This document shows, piece by piece, positions 739 through 64,000 of a stretch of 64,000 nucleotides of DNA. Position 1 is the stretch's first letter. Each line of letters begins with the position of its first letter. The notes below the pieces were generated by a model. It had not been told where the DNA came from and did no database searches. It worked only from the letters and a program-made list of their open reading frames with translations. Origin of the DNA: Tricholoma matsutake (lineage: Eukaryota > Basidiomycota > Agaricomycetes > Agaricales > Tricholomataceae); assembly GCA_026075535.2 (NCBI GenBank), contig AP026540.1:3658001-3722000 (forward strand), written 5' to 3'. A program made the position numbers and the translations under genes.

Positions 739-1693
739 GGATGTGAGGGTGTCAACTTGGGTTAGGGCGAAGAGGGACGCTCGGACACCCACAAGGTAGG
801 ATATGCACCTGGTAAGCAACACCAGACCACTACACCTGCACCATGTCACTAACCCCCCCCCAACACCTATGAACACCCAGAACCAACAACACACCTGCCC
901 CATGCCTGTGAGCCACTGCTCATAGGATGGATTGCGAGTGCATGCAATTGACAACAACAATGACATGGCCTACCAGCACTACTGGACCCCCACAACAGAC
1001 AACACTGGGGATCACCAGGGCCATAGAATGACAACATTGACAAGCACCAAGGCCCGACAATGACACCGAATGGCACCATACACCAAATAACCAGCACCCG
1101 TCCCCAGACCCACAAGCCACTGCTTGTGGGGTGGATTGCGGGTGCAAGCTGGGGGGGGGACGACAATGATTGACAAGGGATGATCAATGACAACCACGGG
1201 GAACAACCAATGATTACTGGGATAACGAACAGATGATGGACAACTACCATCACCTACACCCAGCCCCATGAGCTTCGTGGGGTGTATAATTTTTATTCTT
1301 TCTTAACTACATACATACAATACAGATGTTACGATGTAGTTAGTAGGTAGCACCAGTCCCATAACCAGTCCTGACCAGTGCTGCACTGGTTAGGACTGGG
1401 TCCGGTTTATTACTGGTCAGAACTGGTTCATAAACTGTGGTTGAACCACTGATAACTGGTTTATTGCAGTTTTGGTCACAGTTTTGTAGTATTATGAAAA
1501 ATGGAAAACTGGTTCGGTCTGTGGTTTTGGCCTGCAAGGGCGAAAAACCAGACTGAACCAGACTTTAAAGCGCTAACCAGAATAACTGGACTCTGACCAG
1601 AATAACCGGACTCTGACCAGAATAACCAGACTCTGACCGGAATAACCGGACTCTGACCGGAATAACTGGACTCCGATTGGAATAGGTGGGAAA
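739..1693. mobile_element. M0, hairpin-bearing non-autonomous element (limits approximate)
   Basis: This segment lies between the Ty3-A LTR and the point where the Ty3-B integrase frame stops. It has three GAGC/GCTC-type hairpins: 908-924, 1109-1130 (arms CCCACAAGC and GCTTGTGGG, loop CACT) and about 1264-1282. Each is followed by GGTGGAT or a similar string. The text around the first hairpin closely matches M2 near 61290-61385. From 1345 on it is rich in AACCAGT/ACTGGTT strings, like 33310-33480. A possible intron (GTATAA to ACAG) lies at about 1282-1324. No coding frame is convincing, and no target duplication was found. Confidence 0.5.
1581..1680. repeat. 20-bp minisatellite, five units
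   Basis: Five direct units of exactly 20 bp, consensus AATAACCGGACTCTGACCAG, end at the junction with the Ty3-B integrase. Units differ from each other mainly by C/T and G/A changes. It probably belongs to the end of M0. Confidence 0.85.
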
Positions 1694-1698
1694 GGGTA

Positions 1699-2637
1699 AA
1701 TTACAGCAATCTGTTGAGCTCTGATGGTGATCAGATCCTCAGTCATAATTACCTTATCCCAATCAAGGGATTCCCAAGTTTGGTCTGCAATGTCAAAGGC
1801 GAGGAGAGGTTGATGCCCCAGGAGTAAATAATATGTTGAGTGACCTGTCATATGTGAGGCAGTACAACATATAGCAAGAAGGACAGCATGAAGGTAAAGT
1901 GGCCACCATGAAGGGTGGTCACCACAGATGCACATGAGTGCGTTGATGAGAACTTGATGAGCGCACTCAACGATGGCATTTCACTGTGGATGATAAGGGG
2001 ATGAGAGGATAACTGTGACTCCATAACATGCAAATAAAATCCTCACAGCACCTTTGAACTCTGATCCACTGTCAATGACACAGTAGGGTATACAACTGAA
2101 ACAACAAATGATGTCCTGATGGATAAAATCAGCCCATGCTTCAGATGTGTTCCATTGGATGGCACGAGCTTCCAGCCACTCAATCACTGGCTCCTGCGCA
2201 TGTAATAGGAACTGCACTCCACCATGGCCTATTTCCATGTACACTGTGTTGAGGTGGAAACAGCGAAGCATTGCTGAATTCCAAGTAGGGGAGAATGGGA
2301 TCTTTGGGCGCATTTTAGAGTGGAGTTGGCAGCTGTAGCATGATCGCACAAAGTAGGCAACATCATTGTAGAGGTTGGGCCAATAGTACCATTCTGAGAT
2401 TAGCTTGTAAGTCCCATCACGTCCACAGTGGCCAACTTCATTGTGTACCTGCGCTAGGAGGGATTTTCGCTTTTCGAAACCAGTGATGACAAGCCAGGGA
2501 GTTTTTCCCCCCTTCTGTAATTTCCATAGGCGGTCATCATGTAAACCAAAGACACGTGCCCATGACAAGAATTTCTTTCGCTCTTGTAAACTGTCACAAT
2601 GCAGAGGTATAATGCCATCCTTCAGATAGGCAAGGAT
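1699..2637 (-). pseudogene. Ty3-B integrase (broken)
   Basis: The frame reads through an integrase zinc-binding region (HCGRDGTYKLISEWYYWPN, then CYSC at about 2330-2340). The core follows, with DSGSEFKGA and then YHPQ-stop-NAIVECAHQVLINAL and HMTGHSTYYLLLG. These are the conserved landmarks of this basidiomycete Ty3 family. A TGA replaces one codon directly after YHPQ at about 1981. Integrase would insert the element DNA into chromosomes. The C-terminal part is lost where M0 begins. The product cannot be functional. Confidence 0.85.
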
Positions 2638-3126
2638 TAAGGCAAGGCAGGGGTATGGGTATACCCTTGTGTTTTTGGGCTAAGGGTATGAGGGGTAAGG
2701 GTAGGGGTTTGGAAGTTCATACCCTTGCATACCCCTGTACCCTTACTAAGGGTACAGGGGTATGCCAGGGGTATGCTTATGTAAGAATATCATTTGATTT
2801 TTTCAGCTACAAAGACTCATATTCAAGATTTTCATCAATTAAATTCAGATTTTGGGATTGTCCAACATGATAATGGCTTTCATATGTTAATAAGAGGTAT
2901 TAATATGTGATATTAATAGTAAATACAATAGTTATCAACACTTTTCAAATGAATTTTGCTCTAAATATGTTGATTTTGTGCCAAACCCTTGTACCCTTGA
3001 CAAACCCTCCCATACCCTTGGCAACCCTTATATGTTTCCATACCCTTACCCCTAAGGGTAGGGTGTTCAGGGGTAGGGGTAATGGTATGAGATTTGACAC
3101 CCAGGGGTAACCCCTGCCTTGCCCTA
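2638..3126. mobile_element. hAT-like MITE inserted in Ty3-B pol
   Basis: It is a 489-bp element flanked by a perfect 8-bp duplication GCAAGGAT (2630-2637 and 3127-3134). The ends are TAAGGCAAGGCAGGGGT and, inverted, TAGGGCAAGGCAGGGGT. An 8-bp duplication and TAGGG-type ends are typical of hAT transposons. Many copies of AAGGGTATG/CATACCCTT cluster just inside both ends, as expected of subterminal transposase-binding repeats. The AT-rich centre has no coding capacity. Removing it and one duplication restores the Ty3-B reading frame (ILA then YLKDG), which confirms the limits. Confidence 0.92.
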
Positions 3127-4909
3127 GCAAGGATATCCTGCCAGAGCTCAGGTGATTCAAAGTTGGCTGTTCCATAAGCATGAGAAACACACACAATATA
3201 CCCATCTGGGTCCACATTCTCATAGTTCAGTCTGGTGTCCATACACTCATGGGCATTAATAAGACCAGCCCCACTGTAGGAAGTGAAAGAAACAACAGGG
3301 GGCACACCTTCACGTAGATCTGACATGTATTCATAGCCATAAGTCGTCACCTCGAGTTCAACCAACTCCTCACCAAGCAAAAATTTGACAGTGGCAGAAG
3401 AAGGTGTATGGTGATTTTCAAATTCATGGCCTGGGTAGCTCAGGGAATATGTACTCTTTAGTAGTGACCACATTAACAGATTACCTTTATGCTGTGCCAA
3501 GTCAAGATGTGAAGGGTCAAAACCAAACCCATCATAACACCTGATAGCGCTGACATTGGGGTCATGGAGGTCATCCCTCTCGTCAAACAGGAGGGATGAA
3601 ACCATCGTCAAAATTGTGGGTGAACCAAAGTCAGCATAGGGAACACATAGTGGGGGGCAGAAAGAGTTCATGACTTGACCAAAATAATTCGTAGTCAAGG
3701 AAGTGAGTGACCAGCAAGTGGACACAAATAACTGGGGGGGGGGAGTTTGCTGCAAGTACTCCCAATGAATTTATCCAGGTACTCTTCAGCATCTCTGTCA
3801 TCAGAGTCCCAGTTGGATCACCTTCTCCTTGAGAGTCCATCAGGCACCTGGTGCTTTTCCGCAGCAATGTGGTTAACTTCAAAATCAAAAAGGGAAAGAT
3901 ACATCACCCATCACATCATAGGTGCATTTGGGAGGTCCGGGGATTTAATCATTTCTATCAAGAATTTAGCATCAACTTCCAGATGGAAGTGTATACCCCA
4001 TATTTGGTGCTGCAAATCCTTCAGTGCACAAAACACTCCAAAGAGCTCGCATTTGGATTGGGAATAGCGAGATTCTGTTTCACTAAAGGTGCAGGACCCA
4101 TATATAACGGGATGCTTCTCTTCTTTGATATATTGATAGACCACCCAGCCAGCACTGTTCAAACAAGAGTCAACCACCATGGCCACAAGGCCATTGTCCA
4201 AAGATCTGGGTAATGCAGTAATCAGCTTAGCAGTATCATAATTGAGGCACACCAAGACAGGAGCTGCAGATACTAATTCCTTAAGTCTTTTGAATGCGTC
4301 GCATGCAGCATCATTGAAGTAAAATTCGAGGTTTGTCTGTCTTGTGAGGATTGTTAGTGGTTTCGCAATGGAGGAGAAACCTTTTATCCATTTACGGCCA
4401 ACCCCTGCTGTTCCCAAAAATCCACGGACTTCAGAAACACTTTGTGGTACCAGCCAGTTGATTATTTTTGTTACTAAGCCATGGCCCAGGTGCCAGCCTT
4501 CTTGAGAGACTGTTGTGCCCACCACATTGAGCTTTGGTGTTGCAAGAACAAACTTCCAGCCTGATGCAGTGATGCCCACAGTGATAAATCGCACTAGAAA
4601 TCGGTCAACTGTAGTCACATATTCATAAATGAACCTTTGAATCCCTGGTGCCATTTCTTTGTTGTCATATGTGGAGGTTTCCCCTGCAAAGCTAACATCA
4701 TCAATAAATACATCACCATTTTCTGGGATATCCTCTTGAAGCGCATGCCAAATGCACCGCTGAAATTCTGGTACTGAGTTCGTTGAGTACTGTAAGTCTG
4801 TGTGGACCAATAATGGAGTTAAAAGTAGTAAGAGGGTGCAAGGAGACTGCCAGAATGTGGCCATCGTAGCCTGCAAACAAGTCAGCCAGACCATAAATGA
4901 CCCTGCCAA
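3127..4909 (-). pseudogene. Ty3-B reverse transcriptase C-part, RNase H and linker (broken)
   Basis: The frame starting near 4909 carries FIDDV (catalytic Asp pair of reverse transcriptase) at about 4691-4711. It continues through the thumb and the RNase H region (VIYGSCTFSETESRYSQSKCE, then HFHLEVDAKFLIEM). Below about 3890 the frame shifts, and the linker to integrase continues to 3127, where the MITE is inserted. Reverse transcriptase copies element RNA and RNase H removes the template. The 5' half of the enzyme is in another frame (4713-5744), so a frameshift separates fingers from palm. Confidence 0.82.
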
Positions 4910-5744
4910 CTAGTCCTTCAGCAAAGTCATCCACACGTGGTGGAAGCGCCAAATCTCTGACTGTGACCCTGTTGAGCTCTTGGATGTCGTGAACGATTTG
5001 GAGGCCCAGTTTTTTGAGGACCGTAAAAATCCTAGAATGGTAAAATGCAGCTGAATACTCATACTTGCCAGCTGCCTTCTGATCCAATAGCATTTTTTGA
5101 ACCGTCTCCTCAATGGCCTTGGGGACATGGATTGGTGGTTGAACCCATGGTATGTGTTCTATAACAGGGATTTCGTAGTCAGGATAGAACTCACGGGAAA
5201 ACGTACCATGCTCAGTGTCTGTAAGCGCCAGGGCCAAGTCTCGAGATCTAAGCACAAAGACCAGTAAGTCAATTTCGCATGGAGAGAGAAAATCTTCTGG
5301 CACAGTAGCAAGAATAAAATCAAGGCACTCTTGAGTGAGTTGCATCGTTGGTTCAAAATTCTCAAGAAGAGGGGGATCAAGAGGTACAGGGCGAAGTTCC
5401 AGGATGTCAATAGGCTTGAAGACCTGACCAGCTGGGTTGGGCATGTATGTTGGGACTGGGTGGACCTTGTGGTCGACTGGCTTATATCTTCTTGCTGCAT
5501 GTACATATTGCACAGAATTCTCTGTTAATGCTTGACATGTCCAAGAAGTATGTTGGGGTACTGAAGAAGAAGGCGCTACATAAGCAAAAGTTCTGAGAAG
5601 AGTGTTGTAAGTCTCAGGAGGTGAAAGGGAACAGAGTAAGGAAACATCTTTGTCATTGCATTCTCCCACCAAGCATCGCAAAGTTTGCCCAACGGAGGGT
5701 ACAGGCACATCCTGATGTTCATCAGGCCTGGACTGCATGCCCAA
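4713..5744 (-). pseudogene. Ty3-B reverse transcriptase N-part (broken)
   Basis: About 340 codons include RRYKPVDHKVHPVP, a proline-rich linker seen before RT in this family, then YEYSAAFYHSRIFTVLKKLG and IVHDIQELNRVTVRD. These correspond to RT motifs 1 and 2. GLADLFAGYDG supplies the first catalytic Asp region. The frame is lost between about 4850 and 4713, where the conserved palm continues in the overlapping frame. Several conserved Arg and Trp positions are altered. The enzyme is not functional. Confidence 0.82.
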
Positions 5745-8654: not shown

Positions 8655-11600
8655 CTAAGATGCATCGCCCCGATGCATTCGAAATTGCATATGACCAAAG
8701 TCTGTGACTTGAATGCGACGCGGTGCAGCAGTGTGCCGTCGGTGGAATTCCTTGATTAACCAAGGGGCATTTATGTCAGACTCTTTGACCCATGAGTTCT
8801 CCTCATACCCATAACCCTTCCAATGTACCAAATACTGGAGTTTTCCTCAACGCAAATGGCTGTCCAAGATTGACTCGACTTCGTATTGGGGTTCTCCCTC
8901 GATCACTGTAGGTGGTGGTGGTGGGTGTGAATGGTGTCCCAGGAACGGATCTGGGGGAGCTGGAAGCAATTTGATGACATGGAAGATGGGATGGAGTCTG
9001 GACATGGAGGCTGGGAGGCGTAGATGATAGGCATGCATTCCAATGCACTTGACAATGGGGAAAGGTCCCAAGAAGCGATGAGCGAGTTTCTTGGATGGAT
9101 GTGTAGTGGAGATGTCACTGGAGTCAAGATAAACTTGATCACCAACCTTGTACTGAGGGGTTGGGGAGTGGCGTTGGTTGTAAAATCATGCCATGTCATC
9201 CTTCGCCTTTGCTAAGGCTGCCCTTGCCTCCTCCAAGCTATCCCTCGTGCGTTCTGTGAACTCATTCACCATCTCGATGTGTGAGGGAGTTTGGCGAGGT
9301 TCAAAACCCATGCATGGATGTCGTCCAGTATCTAAGAGGAAAGGGGTCTGTTGAGTGGAAGCATGGACATGGTTGTTGTATCCGAACTTGGCCAAAGGAA
9401 GGAGATCATCCCAATCATCCTGGCATTCATTGACAAAGAGGCGGATGTACTGCTCCAGTTCCTGGTTGACTCGCTCTGTCTGGCCATCAGTTTGTGGGTG
9501 ATAAGCAGTTGAAGCGAGGAGTTTGATCCCCAGGAGTCGGTACAGCTCACGAGTGAACTCTGCCATGAACTGAGGGCCATGATCCGAGAGGAAGGCACCA
9601 GGAAGTCCATGTAATTTCCACACATGGTGGAGGTAGAGTCGAGCAGCACCTAGGGCACTGACAGTGGTGTGAGTAGGAATGAAGTGAGCACATTTTCCCA
9701 CTGAGTCAACTGTGCACATCACCACATCAAACCTGTTTGACTCTGGCAATTCCACCACAAAGTCAATGCTGACAATATCCCAACGACTCTCTGGAACAGG
9801 AAGAGGGTGTAGCTCACCAATGGGCTTGCAACGAGGAACCTTGGTGCGTAAGCAAAGGTCACAAGTGCAACAATACTGACCAATGAGCCATGACATTTGT
9901 GGCCACCAATAGTTCCGTGAGGTGAGCTCCAAGGTCTTCCAGCATCCAGGGTGGCCAGCAATCTGTGAGTCATGGTGTTGGTATATGATGCGCTGGCGAA
10001 GGTCTGGGTCATTGGGAACATAGATGCGATCCCTGAAATACAACAAGTCCTCCTTTTCAGCCCACTCTGCCACACGTAAGGAAAGGGTCGATCCCTTCCT
10101 CAGTTCTTTAACAGCTCGGGCGACAACATCCTCATGTAAACCGCTATGGTTTGCATGATGAATGTCACGTAGGATGTCCTGCTCCTCGCCCTGGGGTGCG
10201 ATGCCTTCCAGTGCCTGAATGGTGAACAGGTCTGGCTGCAACAGCACAATGTTTTGGTTGTCACTGCTGCCATCCCCATGGTCTGCACATCAGGATAGGG
10301 CATTGGTCTTCCCCATGCTGTGACCCGGACGGTGGTGCAAGGAGAAGTCAAATCTAGATAGATACAGGGACCAACAAGCTTGACGACGGTTCAATTTCTT
10401 GGCCGTCATGAAGTACTCGAGATTCTTGTGATCTGTCCAAATTTCCACCTTGTGTTGGGCACCCTCGAGGAAGTGTCGCCACTCTTCAAGTGCACGCATT
10501 ATCGCCAACATCTCCTTGTCATGGATCTCGTAGTTTTGTTCTACAGCACTAAGGCTTTTGGAGTAGAACACAACAGGATGCCACTTCTGGTCCTCCGGAG
10601 ACTGCTGAGACAACACAGCGCCCATCGCAAAGTCAGAACTGTCAGCTTCTACACGAAAAGGACGTGAATCGTCAGCAAAGGTAAGGATCGGAGCGGAAGT
10701 GACCATCTCCTTAAGCTTTTCGAATGCCTCCTGTTGTGCATTATCCCACCTCCATGCCTCCTTTCCTGTCAAGTTGAACAGTGGTCATGCATGATGTGAG
10801 AAATCCTTGATAAAACACTGATAGAAATTGATGAAGCCCAGGAAAGACTGCACTTCCTTCTTGTTTGTGGGCGTCAGCCAAGCTGTGACCCCATTTACCT
10901 TGATAGGATCCATCTCCACTTGACCCTCTGAGATAATCAGGCCGAGGTACTCGATCTTGGTCCTTTCAAACTCACATTTGTCCTGACGAAGGTAGAGTTT
11001 GTACCATCGAAGTCGCTCTAGGATGAGGCGCATGATGTGATGGTGCTCTTCAACCGTGCGAGTGAAGATGAGGATGTTGTCGAGATAGATGCAGACAATG
11101 CCTTCGAGGATGAGGTCATGGAAGATGTCATTCATCATGGTCTGAAAGGTGGCAGGGCTATTAGTAAGGCCAAAGAACATGACAAGCAGTTCAAAAAGAC
11201 CATGGTTGGTACAAAAGGCTGCCTTCCACTCATCTCCCTCCTTTATCCTCACATTATTATAGCCCCAACAGACATCGAGCTTGGTGAAGTATCGGGCTCC
11301 ATGGAGTTGGTTTACGAGTTTGGAGATGAGGGGTAGTGGGTAGCGATTTTTGACCATGATGTTGTTGAGCCTTCTGTAGTCTTGAACTGGTCAGAGTGAG
11401 CCATCCTTCTTCTTGACAAAGAAAAAGGGAGAGGCCATGGGTGACTTCGATGGTCGAATACATCCAGAGGCCAGGTGCTCGTCGATGAACTGGTCAAGCT
11501 GCCGTTGTTCTTCCAGAGAGAGAGGATAGACCTTGCAGGATGAAGGGGTTGCACCGGGGGTGAGTTCGATCACGTGATCCCATGGCTTGCACGCAGGAAG

Positions 11601-17335: not shown

Positions 17336-18057
17336 TGATGATACTCAACCTGGGAAAACCACCAAAACAGCTGATGAGGCAACCAATGATATTTGCAATG
17401 AGTCAGAGGAAGGGTGCGATGCATTCCGAATGTTTGTGGTCCAACCTATGGGAAGATAACTAGTTGGTACTAGTCATGAAGGTAGTGCTATAGGAGATGA
17501 AGGTGTTTGGCATGGTCTGATCGAGTATCAATTGATATCGAGGACAATTGATGAGATCGATGGTGAACGAGTTTTATCATCGATGGTCAAAGTGTGAATT
17601 CTGAGGACCTTTCAATAGGTCAATAGTATACGAAGACTATAGCCAATGGCTAGGAAGCATTGGAATGGTTGCTAGTGCTAACGATCAGAGAATCGTAGGA
17701 AGATCAAGGACAACAATGGTCACAGAGGTTTCTCGTTGATCAAGAGAACTTGTAGAAGCTTAGATTGTTTTAGAGGATAGATCTGATTCTTAGAACTTGT
17801 TATGAGATGATAGGTGAAGATGATTTCTTCTATTTCCAAGTAGATAATACAGAGTTTTATATGCAGTACTTTACACTCCCCCCCAGTCTGAGCGGACTCT
17901 GCTCAGACACACTTGGACACTCGGACTGTCTGAGGACTTCACTTGGACTTTGCTCAGACAACATCAATTGTGCATTTATTTACACTTTTTAAAGTACTGT
18001 CCAAGTAAAGTCTGAGTTCCAGTCTTAGATAAAGTCTTATAAGTCTCACAAAATGAT

Positions 18058-18150
18058 GTGTGCACAGCAGGAATTGAACCAACAGCCTTCTGGACTAGCA
18101 ATCACATGACAATGAAACATGCACACTCTACCACTTAAGCCAAGTAGTCA
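18058..18150 (-). other. tRNA-like sequence in left arm of M1
   Basis: Read on the minus strand, TGGCTTAAGTGG fits the pol III A box and GGTTCAATTCC fits the B box, about 50 bases apart, inside a roughly 90-nt tRNA-sized unit. Acceptor and anticodon stems are poor, so it is not called a tRNA gene. It points outward toward the end of the element. Confidence 0.6.
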
Positions 18151-18228
18151 TTTAAAGTTACATACATTATATCTATTTATTACTGAAATATAATTTGTTA
18201 TATATCATGAATAGATTATTAAATTGAC

Positions 18229-18314
18229 CCCCTCGCATCTGTGCGAGGGGTAATTAATATGGGTAATTAATATGTATAATACTAAGCCCTCCCCTCGCAA
18301 GCTCGAGGGGAGGG
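18229..18314. repeat. C-rich hairpin pair in M1
   Basis: Two perfect stem-loops stand side by side. 18229-18250 has arms CCCCTCGCA and TGCGAGGGG with loop TCTG. 18287-18314 has 11-bp arms CCCTCCCCTCG and CGAGGGGAGGG with loop CAAGCT. Comparable hairpins lie next to the tRNA-like sequences of M2 and M3. Confidence 0.8.
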
Positions 18315-18355
18315 GGCCATAACTATCAATAATAAAAATAAATTAAAAACACCCA

Positions 18356-18378
18356 CCATGAGCAACTGTTGCTCATGG
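18356..18378. repeat. GAGC/GCTC hairpin of M1
   Basis: Perfect 10-bp arms CCATGAGCAA and TTGCTCATGG enclose the loop CTG. Weaker relatives follow at about 18456-18473, 18864-18886, 18952-18975 and 19036-19056. Most stand next to CCACCC or GGTGG strings, as in the other M elements. Confidence 0.8.
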
Positions 18379-18514
18379 CAGCATTTGTCTCTCCCTGGGT
18401 CATCCCCTGGCCATCTCACTCTCCTGTCCCCATTCTTCTCCCCCCTGAACCACCCCACGAGCAGATGCTCATTGGCATGGGGCAGGTGTCATCGTGGGTG
18501 TCCCCACTCATCAT

Positions 18515-18642
18515 CGTCTCCCTTCCCTCTCATCTCCCTTCCCTCTCGTCTCCCTTCCCTCTTGTCTCCCTTCCCTCTTGTCTCCCTTCCCTCTCATCTC
18601 CCTTCCCTCTTGTCTCCCTTCCCTCTTGTCTCCCTTCCCCCT
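18515..18642. repeat. 16-bp pyrimidine minisatellite in M1
   Basis: Eight units of 16 bp, consensus TGTCTCCCTTCCCTCT with variable first bases (CG, CA or TG). CG/TG/CA variation is what CpG change would give. Open frames across it are low-complexity and not coding. Confidence 0.85.
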
Positions 18643-18724
18643 CACCTTCCACCCTGAGAGCAGGGGCTCGCAGCAGTGGTGGTGGTGTCCCCCCATTGTC
18701 ATTGTCGCCAGTAGTAGTTTGTAC

Positions 18725-18782
18725 CTAAAAAAAATTGGTTAGCATCAAAAAATGAAATGAGAAAAGGAAAAAAAAAACTTAC
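18725..18782 (-). other. Intron-like segment in M1, preceded by a hairpin
   Basis: On the minus strand the segment begins GTAAGT, has GATGCTAACC as branch-like site, and ends TTTAG before GTAC, for 58 nt. Upstream of the donor, at 18789-18814, lies a perfect hairpin with arms CCCAAGAGACGT and ACGTCTCTTGGG and loop TG. A second segment of the same kind is at 19146-19218 (GTGAGT, ATGCTAACAC, AATTATAG). Confidence 0.65.
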
Positions 18783-19145
18783 CTAGGACCCAAGAGACGT
18801 TGACGTCTCTTGGGCCTTTTTTGTCTCCCTGTCGGTACCTGCACTCTTGCACCCCCCATCCACCCCGCGAGCAGTTGCCTGCGGCGGTTATGGGGGGTGC
18901 TGGCTGTTGTTGGGGTCTCCCCTAATTGTCGTTGTTCCACCCATTGTCCACCTTACGAGCAGTGGCTCATAGGGCTGGGGTGGGTGGTGTCGTCATTCCC
19001 TGTCATCGTCGTCATCGTTAGCAGCCACTCTCCCCCATGCGAGCAGTTGCTTGCACTGGCAGGGGCAGGTGCTGGGTTGTGGTCTCATCGTTGTTCCTCG
19101 TTTGGTGGTTTTGGGGTCATTGTGCTGCTACAGTATAGATATAAC

Positions 19146-19218
19146 CTATAATTAATGAAAAAATGTGTTAGCATAAAGAAAACATGAGAAAAGAAAAAAG
19201 AAAAAAGAAAAAACTCAC
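19146..19218 (-). other. Second intron-like segment in M1
   Basis: On the minus strand it runs from GTGAGT to AATTATAG over 73 nt with ATGCTAACAC near the 3' end. The bases before the donor include GGGCCCAAAC, matching the GGGCCC-rich exon ends in M2, M3 and M4. Confidence 0.62.
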
Positions 19219-19452
19219 CTGGTTGTTTGGGCCCATTTCATTGTGTGCTGGCATGGGGCCTGTGGCTGTGGGGTGTTCAGGGGGCAGTGGCAGCAGCAGG
19301 ATGTGGGAGGGAGGTGTCGTTGTCGAGTGGTGGTGGTGGTGGTGGTTGGTGATGATCGATGATGAGCTGGCATCATCATTGGTGACGCGGCTGTGTTGAT
19401 TTGTCATCACAGCCAGGGCGGTACATAGAGAGATAAAACTATCTACCTGTAA

Positions 19453-19540
19453 TGATACTTTAGTCTAATGGTTATATTGTTGCCTTAAATGTACTTTATC
19501 ATGTGACTACAAGGGTTTAATCCCTGTGGTAGCCACTGAT
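19453..19540 (+). other. tRNA-like sequence in right arm of M1
   Basis: TTAGTCTAATGGTTA fits an A box and GGGTTTAATCCC a B box, in a unit of about 85 nt. It faces outward, mirroring 18058-18150. The 3' part (CAAGGGTTTAATCCCTGTGG) has a weak T-arm. A functional tRNA is unlikely. Confidence 0.6.
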
Positions 19541-20059
19541 TTTTCAGTCAATTATATAAGCAACTCGGACAGTCCTAGGACAGTCTGAGGACTCAGCTTG
19601 GACTCAGCTTGGACTGGACATCTAGTTTGGCAGGACTTTCAGCCAAAGAAGTCTGAGCAAAGTCCGAGCAAAGTCCTCGGACAGTCCAAGTACAGTCTGA
19701 GTGTCCGAGCAGAGTCCGATCAGATTGGGGGGGGGGAGTGTAAAGACCTCTTTTATATGTTTTAAAGAAACTTCCTAAAATGGAATGAGAAACATGTGTA
19801 GAACATGAGGCAAAAGATATGAGTTAAGGCACAAGGCCAAAAAGGAGACTGGAATCCAAACAAGAAAGATATATATCATATGATGAAAGAGTAATAAAGG
19901 GTATAGAACTAAAAAGGGACTGTCCCTTGTGTATAAACCACACTAAGTCTTGCAATAATTCATCCAGCGGGTTCTGTATGTGATAGGGATTTGGAATGAG
20001 GCTGACCTACTATCAGTAGGTTTGAGCACAAGTTGGAATACTTCCTGGTGCATGGTATT

Positions 20060-31372: not shown

Positions 31373-32400
31373 CTACTTTATGCATACCATTCAGAGAGAG
31401 AAAAACTAATATTATTATTATACTTCTTATTTTACTACAGTGGGCATGCCCGGGGAAAAGTGCTGATTTTGAGCATGCTTATATACCTTTGTGTCTGTGC
31501 ATGGACCATGTGGTCATGTTTGTGCTCCCAAAAATAAAAGTCGCACCATTTGTGAGAATTCACGTGTGTCCATCAATGCATGATCATTCAGTCTGGCAGT
31601 TGCCAGACAATATGATGCTGGGTGTGCAGATATCACTTTGCTGTGCGTCAAGCAACAGAAATTAATAGGGCCTTGTAAACATGTAGTAAATTATATTTAT
31701 GCTTCAATTCTCACCTCCCAACAGTCAGAATCTTATTTGATAGGAAAGAAAGTGAGTAACAGGGCAAGTGACAATTTTGATAGTTTTACAGCTATAACTT
31801 ATCTTCCAATGAGTCAAATTTAAAAAGCCATGCAGTTCTAGATTCCCCCCAGAATATAGAATAGATTTAAGAGTGAAAATGGCAAGTTCTTATTTCTCAC
31901 ATCTTTGCCATTTGTGAGCTTAATTAATACATGTCAGAAAATAGTTTGAAGGCTTGGAAATGAATCATGGAGTGTATCAGTATGTTATGGAATAAGTAGT
32001 TAAATGTTCAATGTGATGTGGAAGGGTTGTGGCCAGATATACTGTAAAATGCATTGATTTGAGGACTTGATCAACTCGAGTTTGACTCGAGTTTGACTCA
32101 AGTTTGACTTGAGTTCTCAGGCATTTGCAATACTCCACATAAAAATGAAATTCAAGTTGTAGTAGATTAACACAATACTCTCCCACTTGTCTAAACAGTA
32201 TTTTTACCATTGCCAACAGTGGAGGAGACCTCAGAGTCATTGAAATCAATGCGCTCACTGCGTCGATCACTATCCGGCCATTGCCAGAATGAGTGTTGAC
32301 AATGCACATACACATTCTTTCTGCCACCTTCCTTCCCTCTTTCATCTGGCCTCTCTTTTTTGATGCTGCACCACCACCCTGTTAGCACCCATAACCACAC
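31373..32400. other. Non-coding stretch, nothing recognised
   Basis: AT-rich sequence without a convincing frame. It holds a short tandem run of ACTCGAGTTTG-type 11-mers at about 32076-32112. Confidence 0.4.
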
Positions 32401-33300
32401 AAGCCACCAAGCACAAAACAGAGGGCCTGAATGACGAACTGATGTTGTCTGGGCCCTCAGATAAGTTTTTTTTAGTTGACTTCTTTCTTTTAAACTAACT
32501 AAATGTTTTTCTTCATTTTTAGGTTCCTTCTTCTGGATAACAACATTGCCCACCCACAAAGTGACACACACAAACCCTATAGGAGCCCCACGCAAGCCCT
32601 GTGCTGCCACTGCAAGCCTCTGCTTGCAGGGCAGCAATGGGCCTGTTTCTGGACCATGATGACCACATCCGATGCCACCCTATGCTGCTGCTGTGAGCCT
32701 CTGCTCACAGGGTGGCAATGGGCTCTTTCCTGGATGATGACAACCACATGAGCGACGAGGATGACAAACAGCAGGGATGACAAATGATGGGGATGAGGAA
32801 TGATGGGGATGACAAATGACAGAACGATGTCCATTGTCGTTCGGGCCCTATGTGAGTATTGATTCATTCCTTTCCTTTCCTTTTAACTAACTAATGGTTT
32901 TTTCTTTGTTCTTAAGGTTTTACATATGTTGTAACCACACCATGCCCAACCCCAGCACTCCATCCTGAGCCACCGCTGTGAGTCCCTGCTTGCAGGGTGG
33001 ATGGGAGGGTTTAATGATGACAAATGGCAGGGATGACCAAAGGCAGGGATGACAAACAGGGGATGACAAACAGGGGTGACAACCAATGGCAGGGAAATGA
33101 ACAGCAGGGATGGTGAATGATGGCAGCAACAAACAGTGGCAAGAACACCAGAACCCCCCCCTCACGAGAGGGTGGGGCTTTTTTTCTTTTTTTCTTTTTT
33201 TTCTTTTTTTTTTGTTCGTTCTCATTTTCTTTTTCATTTCGTTGCTAAACCCCACCACTGCAAGCACCTGCTCACAGGGTGTGAATGTAAATAATTTTAT
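32401..33300 (+). mobile_element. M4, hairpin and intron modules (limits unknown)
   Basis: There are two intron-like segments: 32461-32522 (donor ATAAGT, probably a mutated GTAAGT, branch AAACTAACTAA, acceptor TTTTTAG) and 32852-32916 (GTGAGT, TTAACTAACTAA, CTTAAG). Each follows a GGGCCCT exon end. Between them lie two near-tandem units, each with a perfect GAGC-type hairpin: CTGCAAGC-CTCT-GCTTGCAG (32611-32630) and CTGTGAGC-CTCT-GCTCACAG (32691-32710). Two weaker hairpins follow near 32977 and 33258. No protein is evident. Confidence 0.65.
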
Positions 33301-41040: not shown

Positions 41041-42633
41041 GGAATCGATCTAGGTCGCCCCACAGTGCAGGAGATGCTCTCAGAACAGCAACTGTCGGAC
41101 CTGAATGAAGCACTCTTTGCTATCTGTGAAGAGCTAGCCGAGAGTGCAAAGGCCCAAGGACCTTTGGGCAAGAAGGACATCCTGCAGGGTGTACCAGAAT
41201 GACTTCCTTCAATGAGGGAGATCAACCACCAAATCCCATTGGTGGATGAAAAGAAGAGGTATAACTACCATTTACCTAAGTGTCCCGACTCAATGCAACA
41301 ACCCCTTGCTGATAAGATCAAGAGGTATTGCCAGGCAGGATGGTGGAGACCAGCACACATGGAGCAAGCTGCTCCAATGCTGGTGGTCCCCAAGAAAAAT
41401 GGGGACATCCGTACCGTGGTGAATGCAAAAAAGAGGAATGACAATACTGTCAAGAATGTGACACCTTTCCCTGATCAGAACCTGATCAGGCTGGATGTAG
41501 CTCGAGCGAAGTATTGTTCGAAGATCGACTTATCTGATGCTTATGAGCAGATTCTGGTCGACCCAGAGGATGTCTGGAAAACAGCGTTTGCGACAGTACT
41601 GGGCACTTTTGAGAGCCTGGTAATGCAGCGGGGCGATTGCAATGCCCCAGCTACTTTCCAACAATTGATGAACTCCATCTTCAGGGAGTACATCGGATGG
41701 TTCATGCATGCTTATCTTGACGATATCTTTGTGTTCAGCGACTCAGTCATTGAACATCAACACCACCTGCAGCTCATGTTCAATAAACTATGAGAGCATG
41801 AACTGTACCTTCATGTGGATAAATGTGAACTATATGCCAAGAAACTTGAATGTCTCAGCCATATGATAGATGACAAGGGCCTCCACACTGACAGTGATAA
41901 AATGGTGAGGATACGAGAATGGAAGGTGCCTCAAAACTATCATGAGGTTCAATGGTTCTTGGGACTAGTTCAGTACCTAGCCCACTTCCTTCCCGATATT
42001 TTGGCATACACCAGTCCACTCTCCACTATGATGAAGAATGGACAATCATTCCATTGGCATCCTCTGCACAATAGCTGTTTCCAGACTATCAAAGACATCT
42101 GTTGTTTGACCCCAGTTCTAAAACCCATCGATGCCAGCTCAGAGGAGCCCATCTGGGTGATTTGCAATGCTTCAGTATTTGGGGTTGGGACCATGTATGG
42201 GCAGGGCCCTGAATGGCAGAGCTGTCAACTGGCCGGATTCCTATCCAAAAAGTTCTCAGATGCTCAAAGGAACTATAGGACCTTTGAGCATGAAACCATC
42301 GCGATCCTTGAGGCGCTTCTCAAGTGGGAAGATAAGCTAATAGGTCAGCGACTTCACATGGTGACAGATCACAAGGCCTTGGAGTTTTTCCAGACCCAGT
42401 GTCAATTATCAGCCCATCAGTCCTGGTGGATGCAGTACCTCTCGCGCTTCGACTTTGACATACGGTATGTCAAAGGGAACCTCAACAAGGTTGCGGATGC
42501 CCTGTCCCAGTATTACCAGTTTGATAACTGGGAAGATGCACCCCTCGTGCAACATTATGTGTTTGCCAATGTATGCCTTGATCCTATGCACAAGGACTTG
42601 CCCTGGGATCGTCATTTGGAAATTAGGAATTGA
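41041..42633 (+). pseudogene. Ty3-F reverse transcriptase and RNase H
   Basis: RT motifs are WWRPAHMEQAAPMLVVPKKN, DIRTVVNAKKRNDNT, SKIDLSDAYEQILVDPED, and HAYLDDIFVFSD with both Asp intact. TGA at 41791-41793 replaces Arg before EHELYLHVDKCEL. Thumb and RNase H follow: NASVFGVGTMYGQ, then NYRTFEHETIAILEALLKWE and MVTDHKALEFFQT, and ADALSQ near 42505. RNase H lacks the first Asp (CNAS where DAS is usual; GAT to AAT fits G-to-A). It ends at TGA 42631-42633, also at an Arg position. Confidence 0.9.
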
Positions 42634-59147: not shown

Positions 59148-60270
59148 CAGGCCATTACCTTCATGCACCTTTTGTGCAAGTACTGTGGATGCAACATTGC
59201 AGACATCCCATGGGTGTATTGGTGCTACTATTCCTGCAGCTACCATTTCATCTACTTTTTTATTCAGAAATTTTTGTTGGGGTGGTGTCATTGATCATTG
59301 GCCAATCTTTGTTCAGAATGTTGTGCCTTCTGGGATTTTCAGCTGGTATGAGATGCTTGGGATGGCATTGACTTTGCTCATAACTAGTGCAAAACAGTCA
59401 GCATACTCTTCCACTACTGACCTGGTTATTTCCCACTGCTCATCTGTGAAGTCATCTCCTAGTGTCATCTCATCCAGTATCTTGGCAACATGTTCTTTCT
59501 TGAAGGGATCTGCATGTCATGTGAAAATGTTGCTGGCTTCAGTGCCTATGGAGTTGATATGTGCTAAGTTTTTGCTTTCTGAGACATACAGGTTTGCATC
59601 ATTGTTTTCATAGGACAGGCAGTCTTCTGTGACATCAATGAGAATCTCCTTTGCTTCTGTGCTGTCTGTTTCTTCTTCATTTGCATTCTCCTTATCTTCA
59701 TCAGTTTGGTGTAGAGCACTCACTTGTGCTATCAGTGTTTCAGTCTGGTGCAGTGATTCAGTGATGCTAGGTGGGAGTGACACTTCCTTTGTGGTGTTGC
59801 CTCTGCCTTCTGCTTCTTTTTTGTTCCTTTCTGCACTTTCTATGTGTTTTGTTTCACTGTTTGTGATATCAATTTTCTGCTCTTGCTCCTTGCATGCCAC
59901 TATCAGCTGAGTGTTGCTTTTGGCATCAAACTCTGTTACATACTCATGCTTGTCAATCTGTTCAGTCATGATCTTAGGTTGGGGACCAAAGACTTGCCTC
60001 GAAGTGGGATTCTGGCCAGAAGGGCCCCTTTAATTGCTCCCCACTGTTTCACATCAAGTGTGAGGCTTACACCTAGATCAATTGCATGTTCTGTGGCTTC
60101 TTCATTGATTTGGTTGGTCAGGGTGATAGTGCTGGTTTTTGAGCAGATTCTGACAACATCCATTTCAAAATTGTGGGTTGCCTGAGCTGCCTGCATGAGT
60201 GGTTTCCCAAACAAAAATACCCAGCCACCTTTGCTGTCAAAAACTTTCAATTCACCTTCAAATTTGGTAC
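59148..60270 (-). pseudogene. Ty3-G polyprotein: protease end to RT start
   Basis: The frame 60250-59966 has KVFDSKGGWVFLFGKPLMQA, a signature block after the protease of this family. It is followed by an acidic Glu/Thr-rich linker (59969-59517) and the RT entry MTPPQQKFLNKKVDEMVAAG and VHEGNGL, where Ty3-H is inserted. Stops between these frames are few. M2 breaks the frame on the other side, within GGLKFEGELKVFD. Confidence 0.85.
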
Positions 60271-60551
60271 CTCGTCCTCCCCCACATATTCCTGGAGGAA
60301 TCCTGGAGGATTAGTGGGGACCAATGTTCCAGCCATTTGTCACTCAAGTATATATTCCTGACTCTTCCCATTCCGGGGGGATCCCTGGTTGATTCCTGGT
60401 AAATTACACTCTTCCAGGAGGAAGTCCTGGAATTCCCCAGGACTCTGGTACCAGGAATCTACCAGGAATCCACCAGGAATCCACCAGGACTCTACCAGGA
60501 CTCTACTGGGAATCCACTGGGACTCCACTGGGAGTCCTTACTATTAAAAAG

Positions 60552-60626
60552 GAAACCTTTGAGGATTGAACCCCGGACCTCAGGGTTGAATTAAACAGGT
60601 GCAATATACCATTAGACTATAGTGCC
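60552..60626 (-). other. tRNA-like sequence in left arm of M2
   Basis: On the minus strand it begins GGCACTATAGTCTAATGGTA (A box TAGTCTAATGG) and has GGGGTTCAATCCTC as B box, in 75 nt. It resembles Glu/Asp-type tRNAs, but stems pair poorly. It faces outward. Confidence 0.62.
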
Positions 60627-60849
60627 ATTCTAATATACAACATAAGTACCACATTGAGTGGCTGTGTATGACAAAGCATACAGCCACATCATCAACATTG
60701 CCAGCTCATCATTCAACCACCACCACCACTGTCGACAACGCCCCCTCCACCTCCCTCCCTCCCTCCTTTCTCTCACCACCACCACCACCATGCCATTATC
60801 AACTGCCGCCCCTCTAGCCAACAACAAACATGCCACAACACACAGGAAA

Positions 60850-61248
60850 TGGGCCCAAATGACTGGATGGGCCCTATGTAAGTTTTTTCTCATTTGCTTT
60901 TTGTTTTTATAAACTAACTAACCTGTTTCTTTAGTTTTCCAGGTTATAATCTACTGGTAATGATGCCACCACCCGCAAACGAGCTGACTGGATAGAACAT
61001 GGGCCCAAATGATGCAGATCACGTCATTTGGGCCCTGTGTAATGTTTTTTTTGTTTGCTCTTTGTTTTTATAAACTAACTAACTCATTTCTTTTGTTTTA
61101 GAGGTTCTACTCTACTGGTAGTGATGGCAAACGAGCCGACTGGATGGAACATGGGCCCAAATGATGCAGATTGCATCATTTGGGCCCTACATAATTTTTT
61201 TTTTGTTTGCTTTTTGTTTTTATAAACTATGTTTCTTTTGTTTCATAG
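60850..61248 (+). repeat. Three tandem hairpin-intron units of M2
   Basis: Intron-like segments at 60878-60942 (GTAAGT, AAACTAACTAAC, TTTCCAG), 61039-61101 (GTAATG, same branch, TTTTAG) and about 61190-61248 (donor ATAATT, acceptor TTTCATAG) are separated by exon-like parts of about 90 nt. These begin GTTCTACTCTACTGG or similar. Each exon-like part ends with a GGGCCC hairpin directly before the donor. The clearest is 61153-61187 with arms GGGCCCAAATGATGCA and TGCATCATTTGGGCCC and loop GAT. Confidence 0.75.
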
Positions 61249-61486
61249 GTTCTACTCTACTGGCAATGACAGCCGGACACGAGACAACCCAACACACCCA
61301 CCCCATGCCTGTGAGCCTCTGCTCGTAGGGTGGATCGTGAGTGTGTGCAGTCGATGACAATGATGACACCACCACCTACCAGCACCAGAACTGCCTACCA
61401 GCACCAGAACCCCGAGAACATGAAGCACAGCTGCCAACCATGATGGACAATGACAACAGGACCAACGACACACCACCCGCCTCCAG

Positions 61487-61510
61487 CCCCATGAGCCACT
61501 GCTCATGGGG
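61487..61510. repeat. GAGC/GCTC hairpin of M2
   Basis: Perfect 10-bp arms CCCCATGAGC and GCTCATGGGG enclose loop CACT, followed by TGGATTGTGGGTGG. A weaker copy is at about 61311-61331. The second copy and its flank match M0 at 905-990. Confidence 0.85.
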
Positions 61511-61762
61511 TGGATTGTGGGTGGAATGGTGATGATGGCCACCACCACACAGCGGGAGATGGCCAGGACGGCAACAACAACCAGGAAGGGCCTGGCAACC
61601 AGGAGCAGCACAGAAATGACACCCAGGACAGCAACGATGAGGACAGCAACAACAAAGGCCCAGCACCCAGGACGACGGGGACAGGACAACAGGCATGACT
61701 CACCAGGCTGCCACATTTGCATGGGGCGGTTTTTTTCATTTTTGATTTATGGTAATACCTTC

Positions 61763-61908
61763 CCCCTTGCCCACATTTTATGTGGGTGAGGGGTTTTTCT
61801 TTCTTTTTCTTTATAATTGTAGTGCTCCCCTCACATTCAACGTGAGGGGAGATTAGTTTTATATGTATATATTTGTAGGACTCCCCCTCGCACCTTGTGT
61901 GGGGGAGG
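61763..61908. repeat. C-rich hairpin array of M2
   Basis: Three stem-loops lie in series: 61763-61793 (around CCCACATTTTATGTGGG), 61825-61851 (arms CTCCCCTCAC and GTGAGGGGAG) and 61881-61908 (CTCCCCC to GGGGGAG). They stand on the inner side of the right tRNA-like sequence, mirroring M1 and M3. Confidence 0.8.
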
Positions 61909-62061
61909 TTTTTTTTATGTAATTAATGGTGTATCCTTCATGTCCAATGCAAGGGATGTAGTTAATAAATTTTATTTGATCTTAATTGTGAGCTTCGAGA
62001 GAGAAATACCTAAGTTTGAGTTTGAGGGTATAAATACACTTTTATATTGGCAGCTAATAAT

Positions 62062-62152
62062 TCTCCTGTGGCTCAACTGGTTAAGCACTTGTTTGGTTTG
62101 TCATGTGATTCTTGATCATGAGTTCTAGAGTTCAATCCCTGCTCTGAACAAG
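62062..62152 (+). other. tRNA-like sequence in right arm of M2
   Basis: TGGCTCAACTGGTTAAG fits an A box and GAGTTCAATCCC a B box, with about 45 nt between. The 5' CTCCTGTGGCTCAACTGG text resembles real tRNAs, but the anticodon arm does not fold well. The same family occurs inverted at 62895-62988. Confidence 0.65.
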
Positions 62153-62296
62153 TTTATTTTGTAGGTACTTTGTGAAATTCATGAAGTCTGAAGCACTTGA
62201 AACTTGTAAGATATCTCAAATTGACTTTCCATTATGGTATGACTTTAGGGTACTGAGTCCCACTGGATTCCTCCAGGACTCTGTGGGGGAGTGTAA

Positions 62297-62673
62297 AGTT
62301 CAGACCTCCCAGCATCATCACTCCTTTCCACACAGCTTCTGAGGAAATGATAACTCCATTGGTGTCTTCTTGATGGTCTTCTGTGTTTGATTGCTCAGAA
62401 TATTGATGTACACATTGTGCCGACCATTGTGCTGCTGTCAAATAGTGCACTGACATGCACAATCTCCCCATGTGGTCCTTTCAGTTGTAGTAGTTGTTTG
62501 AATGGAACTTCATCTTTTCCTGGTTTCCATTGTCTGGGTACCAACATGTGTTCCACTGAGTACAGATCAATCAGGTTCTTATTGTGCTCATCATTAGCTA
62601 CATTGGTTTTGGCCTTTGTGGTGTTTGTACACTCCACCTCTTCTATTTGTGCACTTGGGGCTGCCTGCGTAAA
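62297..62673 (-). pseudogene. Ty3-G protease region
   Basis: HMLVPRQWKPGKDEVPFKQL, LQLKGPHGEIVHVSALFDSS and GTMCTSIF then AVWKGVMMLGG are the gag-protease junction and protease of a widespread mushroom Ty3 family. The block usually reads ALFDGGAMV; here ALFDSSTMV. The N-terminal side is cut by M3 at 62673 and the C-terminal side by M2 at 62297. Confidence 0.85.
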
Positions 62674-62894
62674 CTTTGCACTCCCCCCTGTATTCCTATC
62701 AGAGTCCTAGGAGTCCGAGTTTTCCAATAAGAGTCCAATCGGAATCCAATAGGAGTCCTACTAGTCTGACACTAGTCCTAGTAGTCCGATCAGAATGAAA
62801 TTCCTAGTAAAGTCCTATGCAATTCCAACATGAAGTCGGACTACCACATTTATAACTTGGTGAAAATTTCCCCAAGTGCTTACAAAATAAATGG

Positions 62895-62988
62895 GTAAAG
62901 CAGGGATTGAACCATGGACCATGGGATGTAAGTCACACAATGACTAAACAAGCACTCAACCAGTTGAGCCACAGGAGAATTATTAAAT
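62895..62988 (-). other. tRNA-like sequence in left arm of M3
   Basis: On the minus strand it has GTGGCTCAACTGGTT as A box and GGTTCAATCCCTG as B box. It is the same family as 62062-62152 and faces outward. Confidence 0.65.
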
Positions 62989-63756
62989 ATGTAATACAAA
63001 GTTCATTTAATGCACTTAGGGATAGTTCACATATTTTAACCTCCCTCATGAGAGCTCGAAAAAAATTGATGAACCCTCGCAAAGACACGAGGAACCAATA
63101 TAACTAATATAGATTAAAAAAATACCCCCCGACACAAATGCAAGGGGGAGACAATTAATTATATATTTAAAATTCTACAAAAACAAAAAAAACCACCCCC
63201 CCCATTTTGTGGGGGAGGGGGAGGGGGTGGTGGTGCATTGTGTTTCGGTGTGGAGGTGGTGACATGGCCATTAGCACCCGTTCCACCCTACGAGCAAAGC
63301 TTGCAGCGGTGGGGTTTTGGTGCTGGGGCACTGTCTCCTTCTCGTAGACCCCACAATCCACCCCATGAGCAGATGCTCATGGCAGTGGCATGGTGTCCCC
63401 CGTGCATCCCTCGTCGTCATTCCACCCACCGTCCACCCCACGAGCAGTTGCTCGCAAGGCTGGTGGTGAGTGGTGTGTCGTTCGCAGTGCCATCTCGTTG
63501 TCCCCACCCCCTCATCGTCCCTTGCCACCCTCATCTCATCCGGTGCTGGTGCCCGTCGCCTTCCCCTCATCTCTCCCTCCCCCATCTTATCTCCCCCTCC
63601 ACCCTCTCATCTCCCCTCCCTGTCATTGTTGTTGTTGTTGTCACTTCCTCATCTCCCTCCCCATCCCTCTTCATCTCCATGGGTGTTCGTGGTGGGGCCC
63701 TGGCAGTATCATCGGGGTCGTCTTGTGTCCCTCCACTGTTACCAACAGCTTAGAAC

Positions 63757-63819
63757 CTAGAAGATGAAAGAAAAACAGTTAGTGTAAACTCAAAGTCAAA
63801 GGGAAAAAAAAAAACTTGC
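63757..63819 (-). other. Intron-like segment in M3 (GC donor)
   Basis: On the minus strand it has donor GCAAGT after GGGCCCTAA, branch ACACTAACTG and acceptor CTTCTAG before GTTC, for 63 nt. GC donors are a rare but valid class. Confidence 0.6.
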
Positions 63820-63868
63820 TTAGGGCCCAGTCCATCCATCCATCCGTCATTACCCTGTAGTTTAGGAC

Positions 63869-63933
63869 CTAAAAAACAAAAGAAAGATGTTAGTTAGTTT
63901 AGAAAACAAGAAAAGAATGAAAAAAAAACTTAC
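63869..63933 (-). other. Second intron-like segment in M3
   Basis: On the minus strand it has GTAAGT, AAACTAACTAAC and TTTTTTAG before GTCC, for 65 nt. The hairpin 63938-63965 (arms GCCCAAACGATG and CATCATTTGGGC, loop ATTC) lies just upstream of the donor. Confidence 0.68.
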
Positions 63934-64000
63934 CATAGCCCAAACGATGATTCCATCATTTGGGCCACTTGTATCCATTGATGGCTGTTGGCCCCTCTTG

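Follow-up and report, generated by a model that had tools for sequence, protein, structure and literature searches.

An apparently non-coding cassette of tRNA-like units, introns and hairpins shared by non-autonomous terminal-inverted-repeat elements of Tricholoma matsutake

The common view of non-autonomous DNA transposons is that they require nothing beyond the sites bound by the transposase. Miniature inverted-repeat transposable elements (MITEs) are short non-autonomous elements with terminal inverted repeats (TIRs), present in hundreds to thousands of copies and usually without a conserved multi-part interior, and Mutator-like elements (MULEs) have long TIRs and target duplications of 8-11 bp, mostly 9 bp. 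The elements described here, M1, M2 and M3, lie in a 64,000-nucleotide stretch of chromosome 3 of Tricholoma matsutake (C3:3658001-3722000, called the window; genome of 161,040,721 bp in 13 contigs), and several old M families also keep sets of RNA polymerase III (Pol III) promoters, together with splice signals and hairpins that covary. We see about an even chance that M1-M3 are non-autonomous TIR transposons (~1.8-2.1 kb) that maintain a non-coding cassette, likeliest two tRNA-gene-like barriers placed round a spliced, structured RNA. Should transcripts be confirmed, the M elements would offer a directly testable example of selection on a DNA transposon for the RNA it makes or for insulating itself. 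In PMC10211490, repeats make up 71.6% of the T. matsutake genome, and 40.9 Mb of repeats are unclassified.

Non-autonomous MULEs, including Pack-MULEs, resemble the M elements in their long TIRs, subterminal repeats, 8-9-bp duplications, high copy number and absence of a transposase; the M cargo, however, is a recurrent non-coding cassette and not a captured gene or random filler, and no linked Mutator gene was found. From MITEs the M elements differ in their length of ~2 kb and their conserved multi-part interior with introns. KDZ transposons (Kyakuja, Dileera, Zisupton) are common in Agaricomycotina, with target duplications of 8 bp in Zisupton and 7 bp in Kyakuja, the latter without TIRs (PMC12730594); they are present in T. 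matsutake (at least 165 genome matches to the KDZ domain) and their duplication size is near that of the M elements, from which Kyakuja differs in having no TIRs. PIF/Harbinger elements, with DDE_Tnp_4 and a second gene, were found in long M copies, but in the best-preserved of these the element is nested, with a TTA duplication and TIRs of its own. Promoters derived from tRNA genes are a hallmark of short interspersed elements (SINEs); unlike in these, the tRNA-like units of M elements face outward, introns are kept in the copies read and no M2-type spliced copies were found. The promoter of Alu elements is of the Pol III type. The same species group contains megB1, a dimeric Alu-like element of agarics that is described as a copy outside the rRNA genes or as multiple copies in intergenic spacer 1 of other fungi (PMC10627285); it is also of Pol III type, and by that description the M elements are set apart by thousands of exact ends, TIRs and introns. 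In fission yeast (PMC2040200), centromeric tRNA genes block heterochromatin in either orientation, provided that a Pol III complex is assembled on them, and the silent mating-type cassettes of Schizosaccharomyces pombe lie between inverted repeats that contain B boxes. In these barriers (cen1 tDNA-Ala and the mating-type repeats; PMC2040200), Pol III type-2 promoters bound a chromatin domain, as the units of the M elements may do, but the yeast barriers are host loci and not mobile.

M1 is complete within the window. Its termini are CAGTACTTTACACTCCCC and GAGGTCTTTACACTCCCC, its TIRs are long (~95 bp matching at 81%), and the 9-bp target duplication that an earlier note on this DNA had claimed does flank it, as a perfect repeat of TTTTATATG.

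17864-19750, minus strand (cassette): M1, complete non-autonomous TIR element, 1,887 bp
17855-17863, no strand: left target-site duplication of M1, TTTTATATG, exact repeat of 19751-19759
17864-17960, no strand: left TIR and subterminal repeats; 17869-17959 matches the inverted sequence of 19651-19745 at 81% identity
18062-18149, minus strand: right-type tRNA-like unit pointing to the left TIR; A box TGGCTTAAGTGG, B box GGTTCAATTCC, then T4
18228-18315, minus strand: two C-rich hairpins (sequence reading)
18360-18374, minus strand: GAGC hairpin with a 7-nt loop (scan)
18459-18470, minus strand: GAGC hairpin (scan)
18658-18669, minus strand: GAGC hairpin (scan)
18725-18782, minus strand: second intron, GTAAGT...CTAAC...TAG; a GGCCCAAGAGACGT hairpin ends 2 nt before its 5' splice site
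18869-18880, minus strand: GAGC-type hairpin, variant AGGC (scan)
18957-18968, minus strand: GAGC hairpin (scan)
19041-19052, minus strand: GAGC hairpin (scan)
19146-19218, minus strand: first intron, GTGAGT...TATAG; the GGGCCC hairpin has lost its 3' arm in the window copy
19452-19545, plus strand: left-type tRNA-like unit pointing to the right TIR, with T5 after it
19751-19759, no strand: right target-site duplication of M1, exact match to the left copy

The left end of M2 is not CTTTACACT, as had been proposed; the left end of the M2 family is GAGGTCTTYNTCC. No clear target duplication was seen at the window copy of M2. The third intron of M2 and the first intron of M4, a cassette fragment in the same window, start with AT and not GT, as do the aligned sites of a long copy on C12, and CpG decay is perhaps the cause at these 5' splice sites. 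As a further observation on this family, an exon-intron unit of ~150 bp is repeated in tandem, in varying number, in L003, L005 and L007.

60264-62303, plus strand: M2, TIR element; left border approximate
60551-60628, minus strand: left-type tRNA-like unit, outward (sequence reading and alignment)
60849-60942, plus strand: GGGCCC hairpin, then first intron, 60878-60942; an earlier AG is possible at 60934
61003-61101, plus strand: GGGCCC hairpin, then second intron, 61039-61101
61154-61248, plus strand: GGGCCC hairpin, then third intron-like segment, 61191-61248, with an AT start
61313-61324, plus strand: GAGC hairpin adjoining GGTGGAT (scan)
61493-61504, plus strand: GAGC hairpin adjoining GGTGGAT (scan)
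61764-61916, plus strand: three C-rich hairpins, two of them followed by T-rich sequence (sequence reading)
62061-62160, plus strand: right-type tRNA-like unit, outward, with TTTATTTT after it

M3 begins near 62669 and is flanked on both sides by CTGCCTGC, its right end lying outside the window. In its family, 25 other near-full copies were scored and the window copy alone was read; a degenerate third GAGC hairpin was recognized by eye near 63290.

62669-64000, minus strand: in-window part of M3, which runs on to ~64588 (window numbering)
62895-62975, minus strand: right-type tRNA-like unit (sequence reading and alignment)
63367-63378 and 63442-63453, minus strand: two GAGC hairpins (scan)
63757-63819, minus strand: intron with a GCAAGT start (intron signals)
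63869-63933, minus strand: intron, GTAAGT, with a GCCCAAATGAT hairpin just before it

One ordered architecture, with outward tRNA-like units, three hairpin classes and introns, is thus present in M1, M2 and M3, as the earlier note had described. Its nine intron-like segments were found again (two in M1, three in M2, two in M3 and, by eye, two in M4), and ~17 GAGC hairpins were counted by sequence reading (six in M1, two in M2, three in M3, four in M4 and two in a further fragment, M0); stricter scans of the window give fewer, namely 12 rows, one of which is an antisense reading, or eight strict cores.

What is conserved is best judged by comparison between families. Six representatives were aligned: the M1 consensus, M2, M3, L043, L003 and the C12 copy (C12:6478724-6483874; L054/L047/L055). 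M1 and M3 are 54-61% identical to the rest, and the pair M2/L003 is 69-71% identical to the pair C12/L043, with 84-89% within pairs; therefore, about four lineages are represented. Islands common to at least five of the six include the exon-1 hairpin GGCTGTG.ATGACAAAG..CAGCC, TGCCAGCTCATCA, GGGCCCTAN/GTAAGTTTTTTT, the CTAAC branch point, TAG/GTT (twice), the GAGC hairpin with GGTGG and the T-runs near the C-rich hairpins. In the right-type tRNA-like unit they cover the A box, the B box and TTATTTTGT. A few islands are low-complexity sequence of CCACC type or AT-rich, and most are known signal types. When the left-type unit was aligned alone in five representatives, T[AG]GT[CG]TA[AG][TC]GG, GGGTTCAAT[TC]C or a close variant, and a T4-T5 run were found, the middle being different. 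An A box, a B box and a T-run, in the order of a Pol III type-2 promoter, are therefore present in the five left-type representatives and in the right-type set. The claim that splice signals and hairpins are conserved across distinct families, in one shared order, is supported.

Pairing in the hairpins was compared with shuffled controls. Among 66 distinct sense GAGC hairpins, 556 of 594 cells are paired against 538.9 in shuffles (maximum 550), and double-change cells number 45 against 16.4 (maximum 40). With 23 representatives, pairing is 191 of 207 (92.3%) against 183.7 (88.8%; maximum 192), with 18 double-change cells against 7.2 (maximum 19). An independent counter applied to the same 23 gave a covariation of 0.353 against 0.270, a value reached by one of 500 shuffles, with 0.062-0.221 for slid controls; pairs changed on both sides number 5 against 3.1, which 14 of 500 shuffles reached. 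The GAGC stems covary, and this is taken as support for structure, not proof. Most 5' splice sites have a GGGCCC-type hairpin whose end is 1-6 nt upstream of them, and its inner stem sequences vary by family (for example GCCCAAACGATGC and GGCCCAAGAGACGT) but still pair. Of 66 intron candidates, among them some host introns and chance matches, 39 have a stem with a score of at least 9 that ends no more than 7 nt upstream of the 5' splice site, against 5.6% of control windows; this count supersedes one made with a stricter pattern, in which seven hairpins were no better than shuffles (102 of 105 paired against 101.0). Fold z-scores are strongly negative in several hairpin-bearing 200-nt windows, and are -8.5 and -6.1 on the two strands of the M1-consensus window that holds the C-rich hairpins and one GAGC hairpin.

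Genome-wide, with reversed patterns as controls, the end motif TTTACACTCCCCC has 2,175 sites (1,086 + 1,089) against 101 (51 + 50), and three interior motifs, each with a control count of 0, have 3,723 sites (hairpin half-motif CTGCTCRTRGGGTGGAT; 1,873 + 1,850), 973 (tRNA-like 22-mer TGTGGCTCAACTGGTTRAGCAC; 497 + 476) and 266 (20-mer GGGCCCTATGTAAGTTTTTT spanning hairpin and 5' splice site; 128 + 138). Hairpins and ends were compared in the part of C1 present in both lists, using the first 100 of the 3,723 hairpin sites. There, 25 of 66 hairpin clusters have a facing exact TIR within 2.5 kb and are on its inner side, and five are on the wrong side of one; circular shifts (2,000) place a mean of 2.4, at most 8, inside, and so the hairpins travel with these ends. 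In addition, arrays of GAGC hairpins with spacings of 70, 93 and 160 bp occur at several loci (C1:301110-301266, C1:1544534-1544873, C1:2706501-2706747) and probably constitute a further abundant subfamily.

For M1, 40 candidate places were scored genome-wide, and 14 complete copies with the same exact ends were obtained among the fetched loci, copies without both exact ends being left out. At their borders, comparison with shifts of up to one base found a shared exact word of 8-10 bases in ten copies, of 7 in two, and none of at least 5 in two; in one of the latter (L019), 8 of 9 bases match by eye. Divergence from the consensus is 0.8-2.9% at non-CpG positions in every region including introns, and 0.6-18% at CpG-like positions. 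The M1 copies are recent and are decaying by CpG loss, and similarity among such young copies is no evidence of function. The loop of the exon-1 hairpin was found in both orientations, in nine and nine of 18 copies (one a variant), which suggests palindrome-driven DNA inversion. Frequent flip-flop, to which the 50:50 ratio seemed to point, was rejected, because only three changes are needed on the tree against 6.3 in shuffles; inversion is recurrent, not frequent. The loop core is 7 bp, CTCTATC (M1 loci L018-L036 and L063), and similar inversions were seen in M2-type hairpins (L008, L043). For plastid genomes, minute hairpin-associated inversions have been discussed in the literature.

The interior of the elements looks non-coding, in agreement with the earlier note. 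The exon units between introns, obtained by subtraction, are 60, 87, 95, 85, 86, 49, 363, 370 and 352 nt long, the figures 60 and 86 holding if splicing uses the second of two AGs; they are mixed modulo 3, and 37 of the 49 M1-exon indels would shift a reading frame. Exon lengths and indels that ignore the triplet frame are the basis of this conclusion. When the spliced M1 consensus is read in all frames, the hairpins are spread over two frames and separated by stops. Open frames of 90-211 amino acids do exist, for example one of 111 amino acids over the hairpin set in M2 and M3. A Pfam scan of 14 open reading frames (ORFs) of at least 90 amino acids from M1-M3 gave no match over the cut-off, one of them having three weak matches (E 0.03-0.05). 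This set comprised nine of the 13 ORFs of one list and all five of another; the other four were one that lies largely beyond M2, two from the interval separating M2 and M3, and 61823-62128 in M2. A known coding family with these modules in its exons was accordingly not found, and the matches in long copies belong to nested PIF/Harbinger elements.

No transposase of their own was found in the M-element copies read, as had been stated before. The earlier assignment to Mutator-like mobilisation, plausible from the termini, stands only in part: the 8-9-bp duplications (among them the 8-bp GTTTATAG on both sides of the C12 copy) and the long imperfect TIRs agree with it, whereas the two MULE matches on C1 up to 5.38 Mb, the range in which ends were listed and domains compared with them, are not near ends. 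The MULE domain PF10551 has 60 genome matches, 59 over the cut-off; no M-type TIR lies within 1.5 kb of the best three loci, and neither of the two C1 matches has an M-type end within 15 kb. Altogether 21 transposase-domain matches are listed in that range (MULE 2, KDZ 12, hAT 3, Harbinger 4). Two of these 21 lie between facing exact TIRs within 15 kb, both of them Harbinger, and a third Harbinger has one end close. Among the 12 KDZ matches listed none has facing exact TIRs on both sides within 15 kb, and two have the right end only; among the three hAT matches listed none has an end within 15 kb, and 8-bp duplications do occur in M elements.

DDE_Tnp_4 is present in two of seven scanned ORFs of long copies (4.9-5.2 kb). 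Its gene was considered as the autonomous partner and rejected, being part of a nested element with its own TTA-flanked TIRs in the C12 copy. There the gene block reads TTA, AAGGGTGGTCGGCAATAGAAAT...ATTTCTGTTACCGACCACCCTC, TTA, with inverted repeats AAGGGTGGTCGGCAATAGAAAT and GAGGGTGGTCGGTAACAGAAAT, and is therefore a separate nested PIF/Harbinger. The relatives L060 and L061 are bordered by TTA on both sides, have different TIRs and contain no cassette. L041, L042 and L046 are near-identical over the parts compared, and L041 and L042 share flanks; in L042 the ends of the nested element are damaged, so the case for nesting rests on the C12 copy. The 3-bp TTA/TWA duplication of PIF/Harbinger is absent at M-element borders, which have 8-9 bp instead. 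The nested element of the C12 copy, at TTA and in sense at ~1943-4951, lies close to the right tRNA-like unit, and a close relative occupies a nearby position in the M1-type element of L042, a hint of target preference. Two TIR pairs of 8-9 kb, in which no hairpin sites had been listed, were also rejected as autonomous candidates: L062 consists of a cassette fragment and retroelement-like ORFs, L063 of an ordinary M1 copy and unrelated sequence, and none of their ORFs, judged by eye, looked like a transposase.

How could such a cassette work? A transposase encoded elsewhere would move the M elements, a Mutator-like one being the first guess. In the families compared, the cassette begins with an outward tRNA-like unit, followed by an exon-intron series, a set of GAGC hairpins and the C-rich hairpins near T-runs, and closes with a second tRNA-like unit, also outward but of a different type. 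The two tRNA-gene-like units may bind TFIIIC and Pol III, and as a pair of chromatin barriers they may hold the element open in a repeat genome that loses CpG sites and is presumably methylated; two outward type-2 promoters round a predicted spliced unit resemble the S. pombe arrangement. Between the units, Pol II would produce a spliced, hairpin-rich RNA, the structure of which would be retained because it helps the element to persist. We infer, with the earlier note, that RNA rather than protein is maintained, roles at the DNA level (barriers, cruciforms) being alternatives. A stronger version, which we regard as possible but on balance doubtful, is a lineage with a non-coding RNA gene as conserved cargo: a spliced, hairpin-rich RNA between two divergent Pol III barriers, retained in families down to 54% identity through the service that the RNA does the element, for example in countering silencing or in recruiting a transposase in trans. 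That such an element is undescribed fits our literature searches, which covered open-licence papers and found none.

Several results weigh against a maintained barrier-and-RNA cassette. Transcription and splicing are predictions from the sequence, and no M2-type exon-exon junction was found in the whole genome with up to one mismatch. A scan of the window with 4,227 Rfam families gave no match at the gathering score; the tRNA-like units are below the Rfam tRNA threshold (in M1, 18.1 bits at 18059-18126 against a gathering score of 29), and ARAGORN, run with the bacterial code, found no tRNA. Sub-threshold Rfam matches to miRNA families were rejected as palindrome matches. In the six-row alignment the left-type boxes formed no island, and in the right-type unit part of the middle is an island as well. 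The covariation of the GAGC stems is moderate and is carried by three or four pairs; the totals for the 23 representatives were reached by the best of 2,000 shuffles, and further pair types number 11 against 9.9, which 61 of 500 shuffles reached. Since related sequences may score above shuffles even when no structure is present, and since part of the 3' arm was already set by the pattern used to search for hairpins, we read this as support and not proof. Fold energy is ordinary in several other 200-nt windows on both strands. Within M1, all regions including introns diverge about equally little, so that constraint is not visible there. Finally, 41 of the 66 hairpin clusters are without a facing exact TIR within 2.5 kb, for which decay, variant ends or separate spread are suggested.

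If the cassette were neutral filler from a common ancestor, captured or recombined between families, its hairpins could be kept by template-switch repair of palindromes and not by selection; the low, even divergence within M1, the exon-1 loop in both orientations with its three tree changes, and the variable number of exon-intron units between M2 copies, as read from overlapping matches, all agree with this, which we hold to be unlikely, though far from negligible. However, families that are only 54-71% identical still keep the A box, B box and T-run of the right-type unit, the 5' and 3' splice sites and the branch point, and since these are not palindromes, palindrome repair cannot explain their retention. 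The end-less hairpin clusters, together with the tRNA-like promoters, would also suit a composite origin, in which a SINE-like retroposon, now the core between the units, was taken up by several TIR families. Against this stand the introns retained in the copies read, the missing M2-type spliced junction and target duplications that lie outside the TIRs; besides, Pol III transcription from the outward-facing units would run away from the core, and we regard this origin as very improbable.

Two further proposals derive the cassette from coding elements. The exons may once have coded for part of an autonomous element's protein, the hairpins being by-products of repeated peptide motifs such as YEPLLVGW; spliceosomal intron signals and the frame of 111 amino acids that is open across the hairpin set in M2 and M3 can be cited for it. 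The proposal is nevertheless improbable, considering that exon units are mixed modulo 3, that indels have no triplet bias, that the M1-consensus hairpins occupy two frames with stops between, that some stems pair through GTA/TAG-type changes creating a stop in one frame, and that the 14 ORFs of M1-M3 have no Pfam match over the cut-off. Alternatively, the PIF/Harbinger of the long copies (L041/L042/L046 and the C12 copy) could be the elements' own transposase, with M1 and M2 as its internal-deletion derivatives, because two divergent copies have DDE_Tnp_4 ORFs next to the cassette and enclosed by the same TIRs. We give this hardly any credence: the C12 gene block has its own TTA and inverted repeats, L060 and L061 have no cassette, and the M duplications are of 8-9 bp.

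M0 and M4 had been regarded as partial relatives of the M elements; hairpins in both and introns in M4 (intron-like segments ~32461-32522 and ~32852-32916, by eye) agree with that, but no end within two mismatches of TTTACACTCCCC was found for either, in a scan that also misses the variant left end of M2 and is hence not decisive.

32400-33280, plus strand: M4 cassette fragment with GAGC hairpins and two intron-like segments; no TIR found
880-1160, plus strand: M0 fragment with two GAGC hairpins

Elsewhere in the window, ORFs with integrase zinc-binding and RNase H domains of long-terminal-repeat (LTR) retroelement type are located at 3911-4909, 9186-10286 and 41794-42630.

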